Shown here in pieces: positions 6,394 through 21,366 of a DNA stretch of 21,574 nucleotides. Location: the IMG/VR virus record IMGVR_UViG_3300022939_000171, positions 1 to 21,574 of that record; one strand, 5' to 3'. Under the pieces are notes generated by a model that saw only the letters and a list, made by a program, of their open reading frames with translations, made no database searches and was not told the DNA's origin. Position 1 is the stretch's first letter. The number at the start of each line of letters is the position of its first letter. Origin of the DNA: a virus. The translations under genes were made by a program, and so were the position numbers.

Positions 6394-7256
6394 TTCTTCT
6401 TGATTGACTTTCTAATAGCTTCGATTCTTTTTGCCATAGAGTCAACTTCAGGTACTGGTTCCGACTTTGACTTTGGATAACTACCAAGTCTTTTATCCTT
6501 CAGATTATCATATGATTCTTCGTCAAACTCCTTTTTAGCATATCCCATCTTGGAACCATAGGGACGACGACCAGATGCTTTGTCCTTAGCACGAATTTCT
6601 GCCTGAGCACGGGCAGCTGCTGCACGACCTTCTTTGGTCTTTGGACGACCATACTTATCCCAGGATGCTTCCTTCATTGATCCACGAGTTCTTTCAGCCT
6701 TATCATGATCAAAGTTTGGATCCTTCATGGGATCATAATCCTTGAATAATTTAACTTTCTTACCCTTATATTTCGATGTTACTCTATCAGCGTATTCTTT
6801 AGGTGACTCACCAGGTTCTCTTGCCTCATCAACCTTTTTCTTCTCTAATTTATCAAGTGCTTTTTGATTTGCCTTGATTGCTTTGTCATATCCACCACCT
6901 GGTTTGCCAACACCACCATGCTTTCCACCAGGTCTACCGAATGGATCTTTCTCTTCTTTAACTTCAGGGTTGATGACGACCTTATTCTTTACCTTCTTTT
7001 CGGTAATTTCTTTCTCGTCATCAGTGCTCGCAACCGCAGTCGCTGCTTCCTCCTTTAGTTTTTTTTTTCGCGCAATAGCAGCACCAACTGCCTTGCGACG
7101 ATTCAGGAGATACTTATCTGTCTTGTCATGATCACCGTCATTATCGATGTCCTTATCTTCCTTGCCCACAGCATCAAGTTTTTCGGACATGAAAACGTTT
7201 GCCATCGCACGAAGAGTGATGGTCTCAGAGTTTTCTTGGATAAAGTTATCAGACAT
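6390..7256 (-). CDS. Highly charged, largely disordered protein with an EF-hand-like loop
   Basis: A 288-residue protein dominated by Lys, Glu, Asp, Arg and Gly, probably mostly disordered. Near the N-terminus residues 36-47 ([12 protein letters not shown]) match a complete EF-hand/dockerin-type calcium loop with acidic residues at positions 1, 3, 5, 9 and 12 and Gly at 6, followed by [17 protein letters not shown] Gly-rich stretch ([16 protein letters not shown]) and a basic, Ala/Arg-rich C-terminal third follow. A late promoter motif lies 31 bases upstream. Context and composition suggest a virion or assembly protein; no enzyme motif is seen. The start overlaps the nucleotidyltransferase gene by 8 bases. 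Confidence 0.75.
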
Positions 7257-8463
7257 TTCTACCAGATCCAGTCTTGTATATGTTTTTATTTATGAGGGAT
7301 TTAACTTTGTCGTTAGGAGTCAACTTCTCAACGTACTTACGATAAGAATCAGTGCCCACTCCACGTTGGGAAGCGGGAACACCTGCCCTGTCAGTAAATG
7401 TTTCTGTGATATCACGAATCCAGGACTTAAACATCAGTCCCTCTTTGGTCACTGCGATGATGTGGTTAGCACCTTTACGAATAACACGACCAATCAAACC
7501 AGTATTGAGACTCTCAACAAGAGTTCCTACATTGAATACTTTTTCATTAATATAGTTCTCACGAAGACTCTTCCAATCAAACTTAGGAGCAATCTCCCAA
7601 GTCTCTGCCTTAACAGACATACTCTTACGAACAGTATTGAAGAGTTGTTGTGCAAGTTTTGGTTTTGTTCCTGGTGGAAGACCAGCAGCAAATCCTTCTG
7701 CGTCACCATCAATTGCTAACTTTCTAAGTTTAGATGCAGACATACCTTCGACGCCTTCAGCATCGGGGTCCCGCTCTCCTGCAGAGATGACGTTAATCTC
7801 ATCAAAATTATAGAGTTGCCCGTTGTACTTATTTGCGAGGGTCTCAAACTCTTTCTGTCTATCAGCACCAACCACGATGTTGACACTGGCAAATCCTTCG
7901 ACATCTGCTTGCTTCAATGCATCAAGAATAGTTTTAATGCTAGCATCAAATACAATGTTGTTAGCATGATCAGGGAACAACTGCTTCATGAACTCTACTT
8001 TAGTCTGAGAGTCCAGAGGATTTTTCTTTGCGTCCTGAGAGTGAGAGGGATAAACGTAATACTGTTCACCATCAGCAGTATCTGCAATGGTGTCTAAAAG
8101 TTTTGCGTGTCCAGCAGTTGGAGGATTGAAACGACCGAAACCAAGAGTGACTACCCCTCTAGTCTTTTCGACCTCCTGCTCAGGTTCGGCTTCTGGTGCA
8201 GCTTGTTGCGCTCCCTGATCATTGCCAGCAGGGGGTTCGTCGGGGAGTGCTTGTCTTGCTGCTGCTCCTGGTTTATCAGGATCTGTTCCAGCAGAGGGTC
8301 TCCTTCCACTGGAGAAAACCAATTTGCCATCGACTGTCCTCGCAACTACTTTACCGCTTGGATCTACCCAACCACCATGACCATCACCAGAAAGACCTAA
8401 CCTCTTGGCTTGTCTGGCAGCTTGAGTAACACTTTCAGATAGAAATCTAGAAAAACTTTTCAT
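7249..8463 (-). CDS. Cytidylyltransferase-like nucleotidyltransferase with extra N- and C-terminal modules
   Basis: A 404-residue protein with three parts. Residues 1-55 (with [23 protein letters not shown]) form a small module, followed by a Pro/Ala/Glu linker to about 100. Residues 103-285 are a HIGH-type nucleotidyltransferase core: [13 protein letters not shown] at 108-120 supplies the (T/H)xGH nucleotide-binding motif, VVGADRQKE lies at 197-205, and [10 protein letters not shown] at 241-250 corresponds to the ISSTxxR motif. Residues 308-353 ([20 protein letters not shown] and following) look like a small beta-barrel add-on. Family members join a nucleotide to a phosphorylated acceptor, such as NMN or a polar headgroup; the substrate here is unknown. 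It overlaps the ligase-like gene by 4 bases (ATGA). Confidence 0.82.
7287..7294 (-). promoter_or_regulatory. Late promoter motif CATAAATA
   Basis: The minus strand reads CATAAATA (NATAAATA consensus), 31 bases upstream of ATG 7256 of the EF-hand-loop protein. It lies inside the 3' end of the nucleotidyltransferase gene. Its spacing agrees with the other late motifs in this block. Confidence 0.65.
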
Positions 8464-9641
8464 TTATCCCAGGACTTCACAAGAGTAACATTGGCACGAC
8501 GGAACTTATCATCTACTAGTTTGTAAGCACGATCATTGACGACAACATAACCCTCAGGATCACTGTGAACGAATCCACGATCAGTCTTCATGAAAGTGTC
8601 AATGGTGCGAACTTTATTGAGTTGATTTATGATGAGTTTCTTTACAGCACGAATATTGATATAGGATGCTACCGTGAAATAGATAGCGTTCTCATTTGCT
8701 GCGATGAACTTGAGTCCATCAGTTTTCATCTGTAAATATTTAGCCTTTGCAGCACTGGACTTCTTAGACAGCATCTCCTCGTTCATGCGGGCAGCAAAGA
8801 AACGTGCGAAGTCAGCAGCAACTCCACGAGTATTGACAAGTGCCTTACCTTTACGGACTTCTTTGTTGAAGAACTGTTTGAACATAACAGACATGACGAA
8901 ACGAGATTCACCAGTCTGACCCAGAAGATCAAGGAAAGAAGATGCCTGCTTGAGAGAACCGATGGTACGGTTGATCTGACTCATGAACTTCCTAGCTTCA
9001 CCAGGGGTAAAGCGAGAAATACCAGAAGCATCAGTGAAGTTGGCACTAGCAACAAACACATCCCTGGTGCTGGTAATCTCAGGTGCTTCGTATGCGACTT
9101 GAGCAGTCTGGATAGAAGGACCAGCATAGGTAGTGTGGAACACAATACCCATCTTTGCAATCAGAACTTGCTTGGCAAGTGGTGAGGAAAGAGGAACAGA
9201 GTATGTAACTGTATTAGGAGTGAAGGTGACAACCTTACCCTTACGGGTCAGTCCCAGTTGCAGGTCATCAGTGTAGAGAAGGTCACCCTGAACAATACCA
9301 CTGATATTCAGTTGTGGAAGATATGCAAGACATGTCTTGAGTTTCTCTGCAAGAGCACCCTTGTACCAACCATCGATGTCAGCATCGGAGAAGCAGACCT
9401 TGGGGTTGGTCTTGTTGAATACAGACTTGGTGCCGACAAAGAACTTGCCAGTCTGAGGGTCGGTGCCGCAAACAACAGCGGGAGCACCGTCCCACTTGGT
9501 GGTGATGCCAAGATTACTCTGCTTACCTGACAGGAAACTACCAGCATCCTGAAGGACTTTGACCACATCCATACCACCGTCACTGCCACGGTTCAGGATC
9601 TCGTCTTCCAGGTGTTCGAGGTGGGTGTTTTTCATACCCAT
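8460..9641 (-). CDS. KxDG-motif ligase/nucleotidyltransferase-like protein
   Basis: A 393-residue protein. ITTKWDGAPAVVCG at about 46-59 contains KWDG, the motif I of the covalent nucleotidyltransferase superfamily (DNA/RNA ligases and capping enzymes), with K49 as the candidate AMP-accepting lysine. FFVGTKSV (67-74), VQGDLLYTDD (117-126) and KMGIVFHTTY (163-172) are plausible later motifs, but weaker. The C-terminal half is helical, basic and unfamiliar. I recall this N-terminus (MKNTHLEHLEDEIL) as a cyanophage family named DUF6267, unverified. Start choice: M9641 or M9635; a start at 9740 would overlap the upstream gene by 53 bases. No good Shine-Dalgarno is seen. Confidence 0.78.
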   Translation of the reverse strand: MGMKNTHLEHLEDEILNRGSDGGMDVVKVLQDAGSFLSGKQSNLGITTKWDGAPAVVCGTDPQTGKFFVGTKSVFNKTNPKVCFSDADIDGWYKGALAEKLKTCLAYLPQLNISGIVQGDLLYTDDLQLGLTRKGKVVTFTPNTVTYSVPLSSPLAKQVLIAKMGIVFHTTYAGPSIQTAQVAYEAPEITSTRDVFVASANFTDASGISRFTPGEARKFMSQINRTIGSLKQASSFLDLLGQTGESRFVMSVMFKQFFNKEVRKGKALVNTRGVAADFARFFAARMNEEMLSKKSSAAKAKYLQMKTDGLKFIAANENAIYFTVASYINIRAVKKLIINQLNKVRTIDTFMKTDRGFVHSDPEGYVVVNDRAYKLVDDKFRRANVTLVKSWDK

Positions 9642-9687
9642 ATTATACAGCGTATTCTGCTGGAGTAGGGAGGGAGTGGACACTTGT

Positions 9688-10551
9688 TTATCCGACCACC
9701 TTAAATGCAGGATCGAGGAAGTATAACGCATCATCATCACTCAGTTGATCTAGATCAAAATTACTTACTGATGGTTTTCTATCAATAAGAAGAGCAGTGG
9801 AAAATCTATACTTCCATGGTTCAGTTCTACTACCACTTGGCTTTCTTCTTATTCTTAGTTTCAGTGTACCATCAAATTTTTTCACACCAATGGTAGATAG
9901 TCCAGCTGGATCAGAAGACATATAATACAAACCATATCCACCAATTTGAATATAGTGTGTACTTTTAGTACCATAATAACTGAATAGTGTTTGAACCTGT
10001 GGGGCATCACTACCTTTCAAAATAATATCTTTAAAATTTTCTCTGTCATAGTCAAGGTCTCTCTGCGACATATTTTGAGCTGGTCCAGTATGAGAATAAA
10101 TTTTTGGTCTTCCAGCTGAACCCCATTCCCTCTGGACGATTCTAGGAACTCCCATAGCATTGAGGAGTGATCTCATCTGCCTACCCTCTGGACTATCTTG
10201 ACCAGCAAGATACCAAGTTCCATCAGGTTTACACTTAAGTCCACTCTGACCAAAGTCAGCAGCAGTATCTAATTTAACTTCTAATTTTATTCTCTTCTTT
10301 GCTTTCGCTGGAGTTCCTCCAGCAGCATTAGATGATGGTGCTACCTCCAACATCAAATCTGGAAGATCATTAGCAGCTCCAGCAGGAACAAAAGATGGTG
10401 GAACTAAACCAATCTGTTTGTATTGGTAATACAGTTTATCTTCATACATGAATCCCCCACCACCAGACTTGAAGTAGTGAGCCATACCTTTGGCTTCGTA
10501 CATATCATAATAGTCTGGATCAGAATTAGGTTCAGAGATTTCTCTAGGCAT
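9688..10551 (-). CDS. Conserved protein, possible PD-(D/E)XK nuclease fold
   Basis: A 287-residue protein, first gene of the late block. The N-terminal half shows spacing expected of a PD-(D/E)XK nuclease: a helix with E37 (MYEDKLYYQYKQ), PD at 64-65 (NDLPDLMLEV) and E91-V-K93 (IKLEVKLDTAADFGQ) 26 residues later, with a following Gln. The C-terminal half is beta-rich (HYIQIGGYGLYYMS, TLKLRIRRKP) without a motif I know. The nuclease reading is an inference from a short, permissive motif. It starts directly after the U-tract of a terminator, with a CTAAATA late motif 27 bases upstream and no Shine-Dalgarno nearby. Confidence 0.68.
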   Translation of the reverse strand: MPREISEPNSDPDYYDMYEAKGMAHYFKSGGGGFMYEDKLYYQYKQIGLVPPSFVPAGAANDLPDLMLEVAPSSNAAGGTPAKAKKRIKLEVKLDTAADFGQSGLKCKPDGTWYLAGQDSPEGRQMRSLLNAMGVPRIVQREWGSAGRPKIYSHTGPAQNMSQRDLDYDRENFKDIILKGSDAPQVQTLFSYYGTKSTHYIQIGGYGLYYMSSDPAGLSTIGVKKFDGTLKLRIRRKPSGSRTEPWKYRFSTALLIDRKPSVSNFDLDQLSDDDALYFLDPAFKVVG

Positions 10552-10578
10552 AAAAAAGAGGGACTATTCTTCCCTCTT
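10552..10578 (-). terminator. Intrinsic terminator directly before a start codon
   Basis: The minus strand forms an 8-bp perfect stem, AAGAGGGA / TCCCTCTT, with a 7-base loop (AGAATAG), followed by a T run that ends at ATG 10551. It would end the early operon that runs through gp43, uvsX, 41 and mazG. Confidence 0.8.
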
Positions 10579-10584
10579 ATTTAG
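10578..10584 (-). promoter_or_regulatory. Late promoter-like motif CTAAATA
   Basis: The minus strand reads CTAAATA, a close relative of the T4 late consensus, 27 bases upstream of ATG 10551. It includes the TAA stop of the preceding gene and its last base is the first base of the terminator stem. With T4-like spacing, transcription would start near 10572, nearly past the 5' arm of that stem. Confidence 0.55.
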
Positions 10585-10787
10585 AGCAAATTTTCAGTAT
10601 TGTATATGGGATTTTCATTTACTACTGCTTGAATCATTTTGGAATGTTCATCTACACACTTACCCCAGAGTTCTCTATATTCTTTTGCTTTTTCTTCATC
10701 TTTCAAACCAAACTTATAGTTATACCATTCTCTCCAAAGCGCAGCACACTTATCACTTTTTCTCTGTAGGTGTGGTTCCCTGTACAT
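10581..10787 (-). CDS. Small charged protein, 68 aa
   Basis: The start at ATG 10787 is chosen because AAGGA lies about 11 bases upstream. A longer frame from 10844 would sit almost wholly inside the preceding gene. The protein (MYREPHLQRKSDKCAALWREWYN and on) is helical, charged and Trp-rich, with no motif I recognise. It overlaps the upstream small membrane gene by 35 bases in another frame. It is the last gene before the early-operon terminator, and its stop codon is part of a CTAAATA motif. Confidence 0.65.
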   Translation of the reverse strand: MYREPHLQRKSDKCAALWREWYNYKFGLKDEEKAKEYRELWGKCVDEHSKMIQAVVNENPIYNTENLL

Positions 10788-20374: not shown

Positions 20375-20515
20375 TCACATCTTTGCATTGATACCAACAA
20401 CTGTAGCTCCAGGATTTCTAGCAAGAGCGATTTGTCTTGCGTGTTGATAGTCACGGGCATAAACTTCTTCCTTGAAGACCTGACCAGCGACATAGAGTTT
20501 AACTTCGCATTTCAT
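20375..20515 (-). CDS. Small conserved protein, 46 aa
   Basis: MKCEVKLYVAGQVFKEEVYA...DYQHARQIALARNPGA...VVGINAKM. The start overlaps the methyltransferase stop as ATGA. The pattern is beta-strand, loop, helix (DYQHARQIALARNP), then strand (ATVVGINA), a compact alpha/beta fold. I recall near-identical short proteins in many T4-like cyanophages. Function unknown. Confidence 0.75.
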   Translation of the reverse strand: MKCEVKLYVAGQVFKEEVYARDYQHARQIALARNPGATVVGINAKM

Positions 20516-21366
20516 AAAAAGTTCTCCAAACTATTGACTGCATTCTTATAGTTAGTCACTAACAATTCTTTCTTCACATTATCTTTAGTTCCCTTGTCAC
20601 CACGGTGAACCATGGAATAACGGAGATCAAACTCACTACACTCGTAATCTTTATACAGTTCCAAGAGTCTGTCGTTCACGTTGTAGGTAATCATGAACTT
20701 GTTATTGATCTTGTAAACCTCTTCAGCAAATCGTTCATGGTCAAAAGACTTGTGCATCTCACGGTTCTTTCCATACAGAAAGTCTTTGATGTCATAAGGA
20801 GGATCCAAGAAGATAAAGGTATCATCATCCTCACCACCAAGAAGATTGGAATAATCAATATTGGTGATCTTCCAATTCCTAATTAGATTGGAAAACTTTC
20901 TGAGTTTCTGTGCTCCTACAAGAGAGAAGTTCGCTCTGGAAGCAGTTACAGAGAAACTACTATTCTGAGTAAGACCAGAATAAGAGCACTTATTCATGAT
21001 GAAGAAACTGATCGCTTGGTCTACACCAGTCTGACTATCAATAGACTCAGAAATCTCTGTGAAGAGTTTCTCATGGGCTTCATCATCATTGATGATCTTA
21101 GATTTAATTTCATAGATCCTCTCTGACAATTCCTCACCATTGTCCCTCAACTGTACCCAGAAGTTGTACAGAGGAACGTACAAGTCATTGATCCATATAT
21201 CGGCACTGGGATATGCCTGGGCAACATAGATTGCCATTGATCCACCACCAATGAATGGCTCACGATAATGCTTCAGAGTAGACGGAAGCAGAGGTGCGAG
21301 TGTTGGGATTGCCTTCGACTTACCGCCAGGATATCGAAGGGGTGTCTTCAATGGATATTTTGCCAT
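20512..21366 (-). CDS. dam: DNA adenine N6-methyltransferase (Dam/D12 class)
   Basis: A 284-residue D12-class N6-adenine methyltransferase that transfers methyl from S-adenosylmethionine to adenine in DNA. Motifs: the N-terminal RYPGGKSK (11-18), the AdoMet-binding FIGGGS (38-43) and the catalytic DPPY (188-191). The family typically modifies GATC, but the target cannot be read from sequence. Likely roles are protecting phage DNA from host restriction or marking it. No partner restriction enzyme is adjacent, so it is an orphan. It lies within the replication cluster next to gp62. The start overlaps the upstream stop by one base. Confidence 0.93.
   Translation of the reverse strand: MAKYPLKTPLRYPGGKSKAIPTLAPLLPSTLKHYREPFIGGGSMAIYVAQAYPSADIWINDLYVPLYNFWVQLRDNGEELSERIYEIKSKIINDDEAHEKLFTEISESIDSQTGVDQAISFFIMNKCSYSGLTQNSSFSVTASRANFSLVGAQKLRKFSNLIRNWKITNIDYSNLLGGEDDDTFIFLDPPYDIKDFLYGKNREMHKSFDHERFAEEVYKINNKFMITYNVNDRLLELYKDYECSEFDLRYSMVHRGDKGTKDNVKKELLVTNYKNAVNSLENFL

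Follow-up and report, generated by a model that had tools for sequence, protein, structure and literature searches.

What are a nuclease-like, a ligase-like and a nucleotidyltransferase-like gene doing side by side in the replication region of a T4-like cyanophage? The question is raised by a 21,574-base stretch, the IMG/VR virus record IMGVR_UViG_3300022939_000171 (hereafter the window), whose source is such a phage. An initial annotation, made from the sequence without database searches, had singled out three consecutive open reading frames (ORFs) on the minus strand, the last two overlapping by 4 bases, and both statements are correct. We refer to them as NUC (10551-9688, 287 amino acids), LIG (9635-8460, 391 amino acids) and CYT (8463-7249, 404 amino acids); LIG and CYT share the bases ATGA at 8463-8460. 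LIG starts with a conserved MKNTHLEH, and a second in-frame ATG lies two codons further upstream, at 9641. Our answer, which we consider reasonably probable, is that the three genes open a head-cargo operon of T4-like phages, probably a late one, whose first position is an interchangeable slot for restriction-endonuclease-like nucleases.

The argument for head cargo begins at the N-terminus of CYT. The T4 internal proteins IPII and IPIII begin with MKTYQEFIAEA, the last A following the cut. In this capsid-targeting sequence residues 4 and 7 are involved in targeting and residues 8 and 10 in processing, and the protease gp21 cleaves after L/I-x-E (PMC9026906). CYT agrees with the T4 tag at positions 4, 7, 8 and 10 (window 8434-8463, minus strand), and a gp21 cut is predicted after E10 of its L-S-E. 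Aromatic residues at 4 and 7, a hydrophobic residue at 8 and E at 10 are found in the window CYT and in more than half of distinct CYT ORFs. All 23 CYTs aligned keep F4 and E10, although the stretch between the tag and the catalytic core is unconserved or missing. When ORFs distinct by their first 80 residues were counted, the strict pattern was present in 54 of 91 CYT, 14 of 116 LIG and 7 of 100 slot proteins (those encoded upstream of LIG, at the place of NUC), and in 6 of 1069 other ORFs. The general pattern occurs in 26 of the 41 CYT 70% clusters that have a complete start.

The tag also occurs on the partners of CYT. We counted the general pattern in 38 mostly divergent loci, comprising three named phages and 35 contigs from bacterial and archaeal genome collections that we take to be phage from their genes; some are near-identical (L134/L135, L136/L137). 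It was found on 18 of 38 LIGs, 11 of 24 CYTs and 7 of 29 slot proteins, the last class here being any upstream ORF of at least 220 amino acids, nuclease-like or not. Tagged LIGs typically consist of the tag followed by KNTH.EH, cyanophage-type LIGs start at or near MKNTHLEH, and none of 83 cyanophage-type LIGs bears the tag. The idea that LIG is no head cargo at all was dropped after this control count found tagged LIGs in divergent phages.

Does the tag go with presence in the particle? For S-CREM2, with a single ORF-calling rule throughout and the published virion table (PMC10665884), the general pattern occurred in 4 of 49 ORFs detected by mass spectrometry and in 1 of 154 undetected ones (Fisher p 0.013). 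At the annotated starts it occurred in 5 of 50 scored virion proteins, and the strict pattern in 3 of 50; the scoring omits 2 of the 52 listed proteins, which span fetched pieces. Three of the five tagged proteins (an S-adenosylmethionine hydrolase, an APH/ChoK-like kinase and CYT) belong to a set of six regarded there as non-structural (PMC10665884). Besides CYT, the virion-detected proteins of S-CREM2 (OR473000) with the tag pattern are ORF6, ORF13, ORF14 and ORF136, the hydrolase and the kinase included. Since virion proteins beyond CYT are tagged in this phage, one might use the tag to predict head cargo in cyanophages.

CYT homologues have been reported in purified virions of S-SM1 (PMC3037559), S-SZBM1 (PMC9146016), S-CREM2 (PMC10665884) and S-SCSM1 (PMC9602691), and SSCSM1_90, a slot protein, carries a virion-protein annotation. 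Carriage in the particle, which the initial annotation had suggested, is supported for CYT by published proteomics of its homologues, and tags in relatives argue for it in all three protein types. That cyanophage-type LIGs are untagged and CYT is tagged fits the virion data, in which CYT is detected and LIG is unlisted. The gene downstream of CYT, P4 (7256-6390, minus strand), overlaps it by 8 bases. Genes likened to P4 by position alone, each following CYT, appear in the S-SZBM1 virion list (SSZBM1_139; PMC9146016) and carry a virion-protein flag in S-SCSM1 (SSCSM1_92).

We then asked what kind of protein each gene encodes. CYT matches PF01467 (E 1e-7) and phrog_395 (E 3e-98), and was assigned to T4-GC 190 by comparison. 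Its motifs GRFNPP.GH and S.S..R, the HIGH-family signature of nicotinamide mononucleotide (NMN) adenylyltransferases (NMNATs), show full invariance or at least 90% conservation across 23 diverse rows, and the family matches support the proposal that the third gene is nucleotidyltransferase-like. Its closest curated models in NCBIfam are adenylyltransferases of NMN and nicotinic acid mononucleotide (NaMN), with scores far under the cut-offs (TIGR00482, 23.4 of 112.45 bits; TIGR01526, 20.7 of 341.15). Profile and single-sequence searches of the PDB gave nothing significant, the profile search yielding a weak match to the NMNAT 9rpk (E 0.51). Behind the tag lie a variable linker, this NMNAT-like core and a small C-terminal domain. 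A single profile, phrog_455, unites a LIG part with a CYT part, which, as judged from the profile alone, indicates a natural fusion. The C-terminal domain (residues 298-354) also matches phrog_4808 and a stretch annotated as NrdB in Synechococcus phage Sf-FR1. Syn33 (L084 6001-8701) has two adjoining genes annotated as cytidyltransferase, one in T4-GC 190 and one in T4-GC 715.

LIG matches Pfam PF19782 (DUF6267; E 6.3e-116), and by comparison belongs to T4-GC 71, the cluster of its relatives in P-SSM2 and Syn33. The K, D and G of its K-x-D-G motif, including the K49 on which the initial annotation had relied, are the same in all 85 aligned relatives, the profile-covering part of 88 matches of which some are near-identical. 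Equally invariant are the Q and D of QGD (Q-x-D), the E and G of EG and the lysine of the last motif; motifs III-V were assigned by eye from known ligase motifs. The AlphaFold2 model (predicted local distance difference test, pLDDT, 83.0) has as its best VIA match the Naegleria RNA ligase (Z 8.5, 179 residues aligned), followed by T4 Rnl1, archaeal RNA ligases, T4 Rnl2 and DNA ligases, with unrelated helical rows interspersed. The predicted ligase-like fold of the second gene is supported by this model, and the KxDG lysine with motifs III, IV and V on a nucleotidyltransferase fold places LIG, as modelled, in the covalent nucleotidyltransferase superfamily. Single-sequence and profile searches of the PDB with LIG found nothing significant.

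Two features set the modelled LIG apart. It has no second domain of the kind found in ATP-dependent DNA and RNA ligases (an OB-fold or a family-specific C-terminal domain), the chain stopping 19 residues past the motif V lysine (K372 of 391), and it carries a helical insertion at about residues 205-345, between the third and fourth motifs. The insertion is missing from the Syn33 LIG, and P-SSM2, S-SCSM1 and S-CREM2 encode a short LIG core of about 300 amino acids elsewhere in the genome; the core is present in all seven phages checked. Five viral contigs (L095, L098, L099, L100, L101) have, after NUC, a stand-alone ORF of 70-81 amino acids that matches only the insertion, and CYT comes next in all four that reach far enough. 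P-SSM2, whose short LIG core lies elsewhere, has a 67-amino-acid gene (L081 6675-6878) at the place of the insertion ORF, compared by position alone.

All 15 aligned NUC rows keep D65, E91, K93 and Q102, of which E91 and K93 are part of the nuclease site originally proposed. Taken with the conserved residues of LIG and CYT described above, the motifs noticed in the three proteins exceed chance. The best VIA match of the NUC AlphaFold2 model (pLDDT 66.3, predicted template modelling score 0.69, that is, modest confidence) is the HhaI endonuclease 6uke (Z 9.3, root-mean-square deviation 3.9, 177 residues aligned over residues 26-280). An archaeal Holliday-junction resolvase, HinP1I (4.8), a SPARDA complex and MspI (4.3) follow at Z 4.3-4.8. 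We take these matches to be PD-(D/E)xK enzymes. The fold and the D...ExK triad of a PD-(D/E)xK Type II restriction endonuclease are both seen in NUC, in a model of pLDDT 66, and support the nuclease-like fold predicted for the first gene. By sequence, NUC has no hit to a restriction-enzyme family in Pfam, NCBIfam or PADLOC, and a PDB profile search returned nothing significant and no restriction enzymes among its hits. It matches phrog_26930, the function of which is not known, and six BFVD entries at E <= 0.001, namely three uncharacterised phage proteins (P-SSM2 first) and three nameless ones.

The gene at this position is exchanged between close relatives. Up to the NUC start codon the window and contig L002 share 95.6% DNA identity, and from just beyond the NUC stop 96.9%; between these points L002 has a different gene exactly in the place of NUC. 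Of the 18 groups that unite at least two loci with LIGs at least 90% identical, 5 hold more than one slot family. All four members tested of the L002-type family match the PADLOC Type II restriction-enzyme model (E 4.7e-8, 1.7e-12, 1.7e-10 and 1.9e-9), among them that of Stenotrophomonas phage DLP6 and two tagged proteins. For this family and two others, alignments whose rows are only 20-50% identical to the first keep few columns unchanged, D and S-x-K among them. PDB profile searches with two slot alignments found nothing significant. By blastp, 26 families occur upstream of LIG, including 2-oxoglutarate oxygenases and other unrelated genes, some clearly no nucleases. One weak PHROG link joins slot families (E 4e-4). 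We rejected the notion that the slot families form one homologous group, given a null hhalign comparison on shallow alignments and a motif pattern that is weak by itself.

Is the trio an obligate unit? It is not. Among 50,697 phage records, the NUC family is found in 9, LIG in 471 and CYT in 536. Cyanophage-type names (Synechococcus, Cyanophage, Prochlorococcus) account for 456 LIG and 462 CYT records, close totals that were compared as such, not record by record, some CYT matches being to the C-terminal domain alone; annotations in the rows examined are mostly hypothetical protein and cytidyltransferase. CYT is adjacent in 21 of the 56 LIG clusters that could be judged, within 4 kb in 17 and neither in 18. 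This count omits clusters with neither CYT nor 2.5 kb downstream, and among the 18 are three short LIG cores of phages that carry CYT elsewhere, as well as a contig with a split LIG, counted twice. Nine contigs were searched whole: six long fragments, chosen for a CYT-less LIG, had no CYT anywhere, and each of three controls had one. Among 31 NUC loci, counted with duplicates, 25 have CYT after NUC, and the remaining 6 lie on contigs that stop short of where it would be. Of the initial interpretation, the folds, the motif residues and carriage in the particle are supported; obligate co-occurrence is not, in view of these counts and of the replacement of NUC by unrelated proteins in close relatives.

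The late timing that had been proposed is supported indirectly, by the virion presence of CYT homologues and by a conserved 37-base block before the slot gene (10549-10585, minus strand) in which TCTAAATA, a hairpin and the ATG follow one another, likely a late promoter and start. The TCTAAATA element ends 26 bases ahead of the NUC ATG, and the block is 100% (L004) and 98% (L005) identical where the DNA immediately upstream ceases to align. The number of TATAAATA-like sites gives the proposal no help: the window holds 29 with at most one mismatch, compared with 22.6 +/- 4.8 by chance, and CTAAATA sites likewise show no excess.

How might such a module work? On the head-cargo reading, the first position would be an exchangeable nuclease slot, the second a minimal RNA-ligase-like nucleotidyltransferase and the third an NMNAT-like nucleotidyltransferase. 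The tag would direct the proteins into the prohead core, gp21 would cut it after E10, and the cargo would be ejected together with the DNA. After injection the nuclease may cut whatever DNA the cell already holds, be it the host chromosome, resident elements or rivals, and gene exchange would replace its specificity. LIG and CYT may work on the 5'-phosphate ends so produced or on the cell's pool of nicotinamide adenine dinucleotide (NAD) and AMP. Joint action is argued by the head tag that LIG and slot proteins share with CYT in relatives and by phrog_455. As the LIG of the window lineage is untagged, it probably works there inside the cell that makes the particles, or it reaches the next host by some other way.

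Several observations weigh against the head-cargo reading. On the side of carriage, the window NUC and LIG have no recognisable tag, and with the strict pattern the S-CREM2 comparison falls to 2 of 49 detected against 0 of 154 undetected ORFs (p 0.057). LIG is missing from the available virion lists of S-SZBM1 (PMC9146016) and S-CREM2 (PMC10665884), both of which contain CYT, and the S-SCSM1 LIG has no virion-protein flag though CYT is a virion protein there; the slot protein SSZBM1_142 is likewise missing from the S-SZBM1 list (PMC9146016). CYT was reported as undetected in the S-PM2 virion, and two groups of authors caution that proteins such as CYT may carry over after caesium chloride purification (PMC9602691, PMC10665884). 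On the side of the nuclease, the NUC model is of modest confidence, and neither it nor the LIG model gives a Foldseek match in the PDB at E <= 0.001. PADLOC matched none of 20 among 24 slot proteins tested, no pair of slot families exceeded 20% in hhalign on shallow alignments, and slot families bear a crude D...(S/E)xK pattern just somewhat more often than others (10 of 22, compared with 14 of 74). Self-avoidance of NUC sites was also dropped as an argument. CCGG occurs 0 times in the window (13.0 expected) and GGCC once (13.6 expected), but many related phages avoid both whatever their slot gene, some NUC carriers do not, and avoidance does not track nuclease type.

Some of these points favour a different picture, which we think somewhat unlikely, in which the nuclease acts late in the infected cell on superinfecting phages or host DNA, LIG seals stray cuts in phage DNA and only CYT is packaged. 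The untagged NUC and LIG of the window, and a LIG that is absent from two virion lists and unflagged in a third phage, are what it would lead one to expect. The tags on slot proteins and LIGs of divergent relatives and the annotation of SSCSM1_90 speak against it.

About as doubtful is the possibility that the CYT brought in by the virion works as an NMN adenylyltransferase and restores NAD+ in the new host, to serve metabolism or to counter NAD+-depleting defences, with LIG and the nuclease as separate passengers. Such a role has already been proposed for S-SCSM1 (PMC9602691) and S-CREM2 (PMC10665884). The NMNAT-like motifs and the best, if weak, NCBIfam and PDB profile matches of CYT all point that way. 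However, CYT scores far below the NMNAT equivalog cut-offs, LIG and slot proteins bear the same head tag in relatives, and phrog_455 unites LIG and CYT.

We regard it as unlikely that the slot is a hyperplastic insertion site, a landing place of selfish nuclease genes without functional tie to LIG and CYT, which would be ordinary late genes. The many unrelated families upstream of LIG, replacement of whole genes and the lineages lacking a slot nuclease or CYT beside LIG would suit this view. It sits less well with a promoter block and start codon that are kept on replacement, with the recurrence of D...(S/E)xK proteins, with head tags on slot proteins at 7 of 29 loci, and with CYT following NUC wherever contigs are long enough. 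It is improbable indeed that LIG and CYT mend or re-cap RNA (for example tRNA) cut by host defences, with an RNA-processing nuclease in the slot: RNA ligases are nearest to the LIG model, phage RNA ligases are known from the literature to be used against tRNA-cutting defences, and an annotated tRNA ligase gene lies four genes downstream of CYT in P-SSM2, but NUC is nearest to DNA restriction enzymes, one slot family matches Type II restriction enzymes, and LIG lacks the C-terminal domain of classical ligases.

The head-cargo reading, if true, has consequences beyond this window, as hundreds of cyanophage records match LIG and CYT. The ten-residue T4 signal would predict head cargo throughout the marine T4-like phages, as is consistent with one published virion proteome, and unknown virion proteins would become testable injected effectors. 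An exchangeable restriction-enzyme-like nuclease in that cargo would give phages a counterpart of restriction and account for a gene that changes rapidly within an otherwise conserved replication region. A more specific version, which we hold to be quite unlikely, is that the injected nuclease cuts DNA in the new cell, and LIG and CYT transfer AMP to the 5'-phosphates, blocking or tagging the ends against host repair. Restriction, normally a bacterial defence, would then become a virion weapon that takes on a new specificity when a single gene is swapped.

In the window, the gene order DNA polymerase, UvsX, 2-oxoglutarate oxygenase, gp41, MazG, NUC-LIG-CYT-P4, primase and ribonucleotide reductase, with names assigned by comparison and in part by Pfam, is that of named Kyanoviridae. 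The window also encodes a D12-class N6-adenine DNA methyltransferase (20512-21366, minus strand; PF02086, E 1.7e-30).

How new is this arrangement? The initial annotation saw in the trio a candidate for an undescribed system; one part of it, the virion-borne NMNAT-like CYT, has already been published. Within a limited literature collection, no paper mentioned DUF6267, a search for cyanophages with capsid targeting returned only a T4 review, and no title or abstract opening described a slot-LIG-CYT module. In two surveys of phage conflict systems the word NMNAT is absent, and the module goes unmentioned in the passages available. CYT is a homologue of the virion-associated NMNAT-like cytidylyltransferase of cyanophages (T4-GC 190; S-SM1, S-SCSM1, S-SZBM1, S-CREM2), whose tag, ligase-like partner and nuclease slot go unmentioned in the available parts of those papers. 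What is new here is the tag on CYT, the same tag on the LIG and slot proteins of relatives, and the slot as a site of gene swapping.

Each component also has a known counterpart. NUC resembles HhaI, HinP1I and MspI in its modelled fold, with an invariant D and ExK; unlike them, it lies in a phage operon with no methylase gene directly adjoining, and its sequence-profile hits include no restriction enzyme. LIG shares with the RNA ligases (Naegleria Rnl, T4 Rnl1, T4 Rnl2) the nucleotidyltransferase core and the KxDG, EG and K motifs, but it lacks a C-terminal partner domain, has a helical insertion before the fourth motif (missing in some relatives) and has D instead of E in the third motif. For the module as a whole there is a parallel with T4 IPI-III and Alt. 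Both systems place varied cargo behind a single N-terminal tag of about ten residues, with similar residues at positions 4, 7, 8 and 10 and an L/I-x-E cut site. Here, however, the genes lie among replication genes (gp41 to gp61), in contrast to those of the T4 internal head proteins, and the cargo would be an enzyme module of nuclease slot, LIG and CYT in place of a restriction inhibitor or an ADP-ribosyltransferase.

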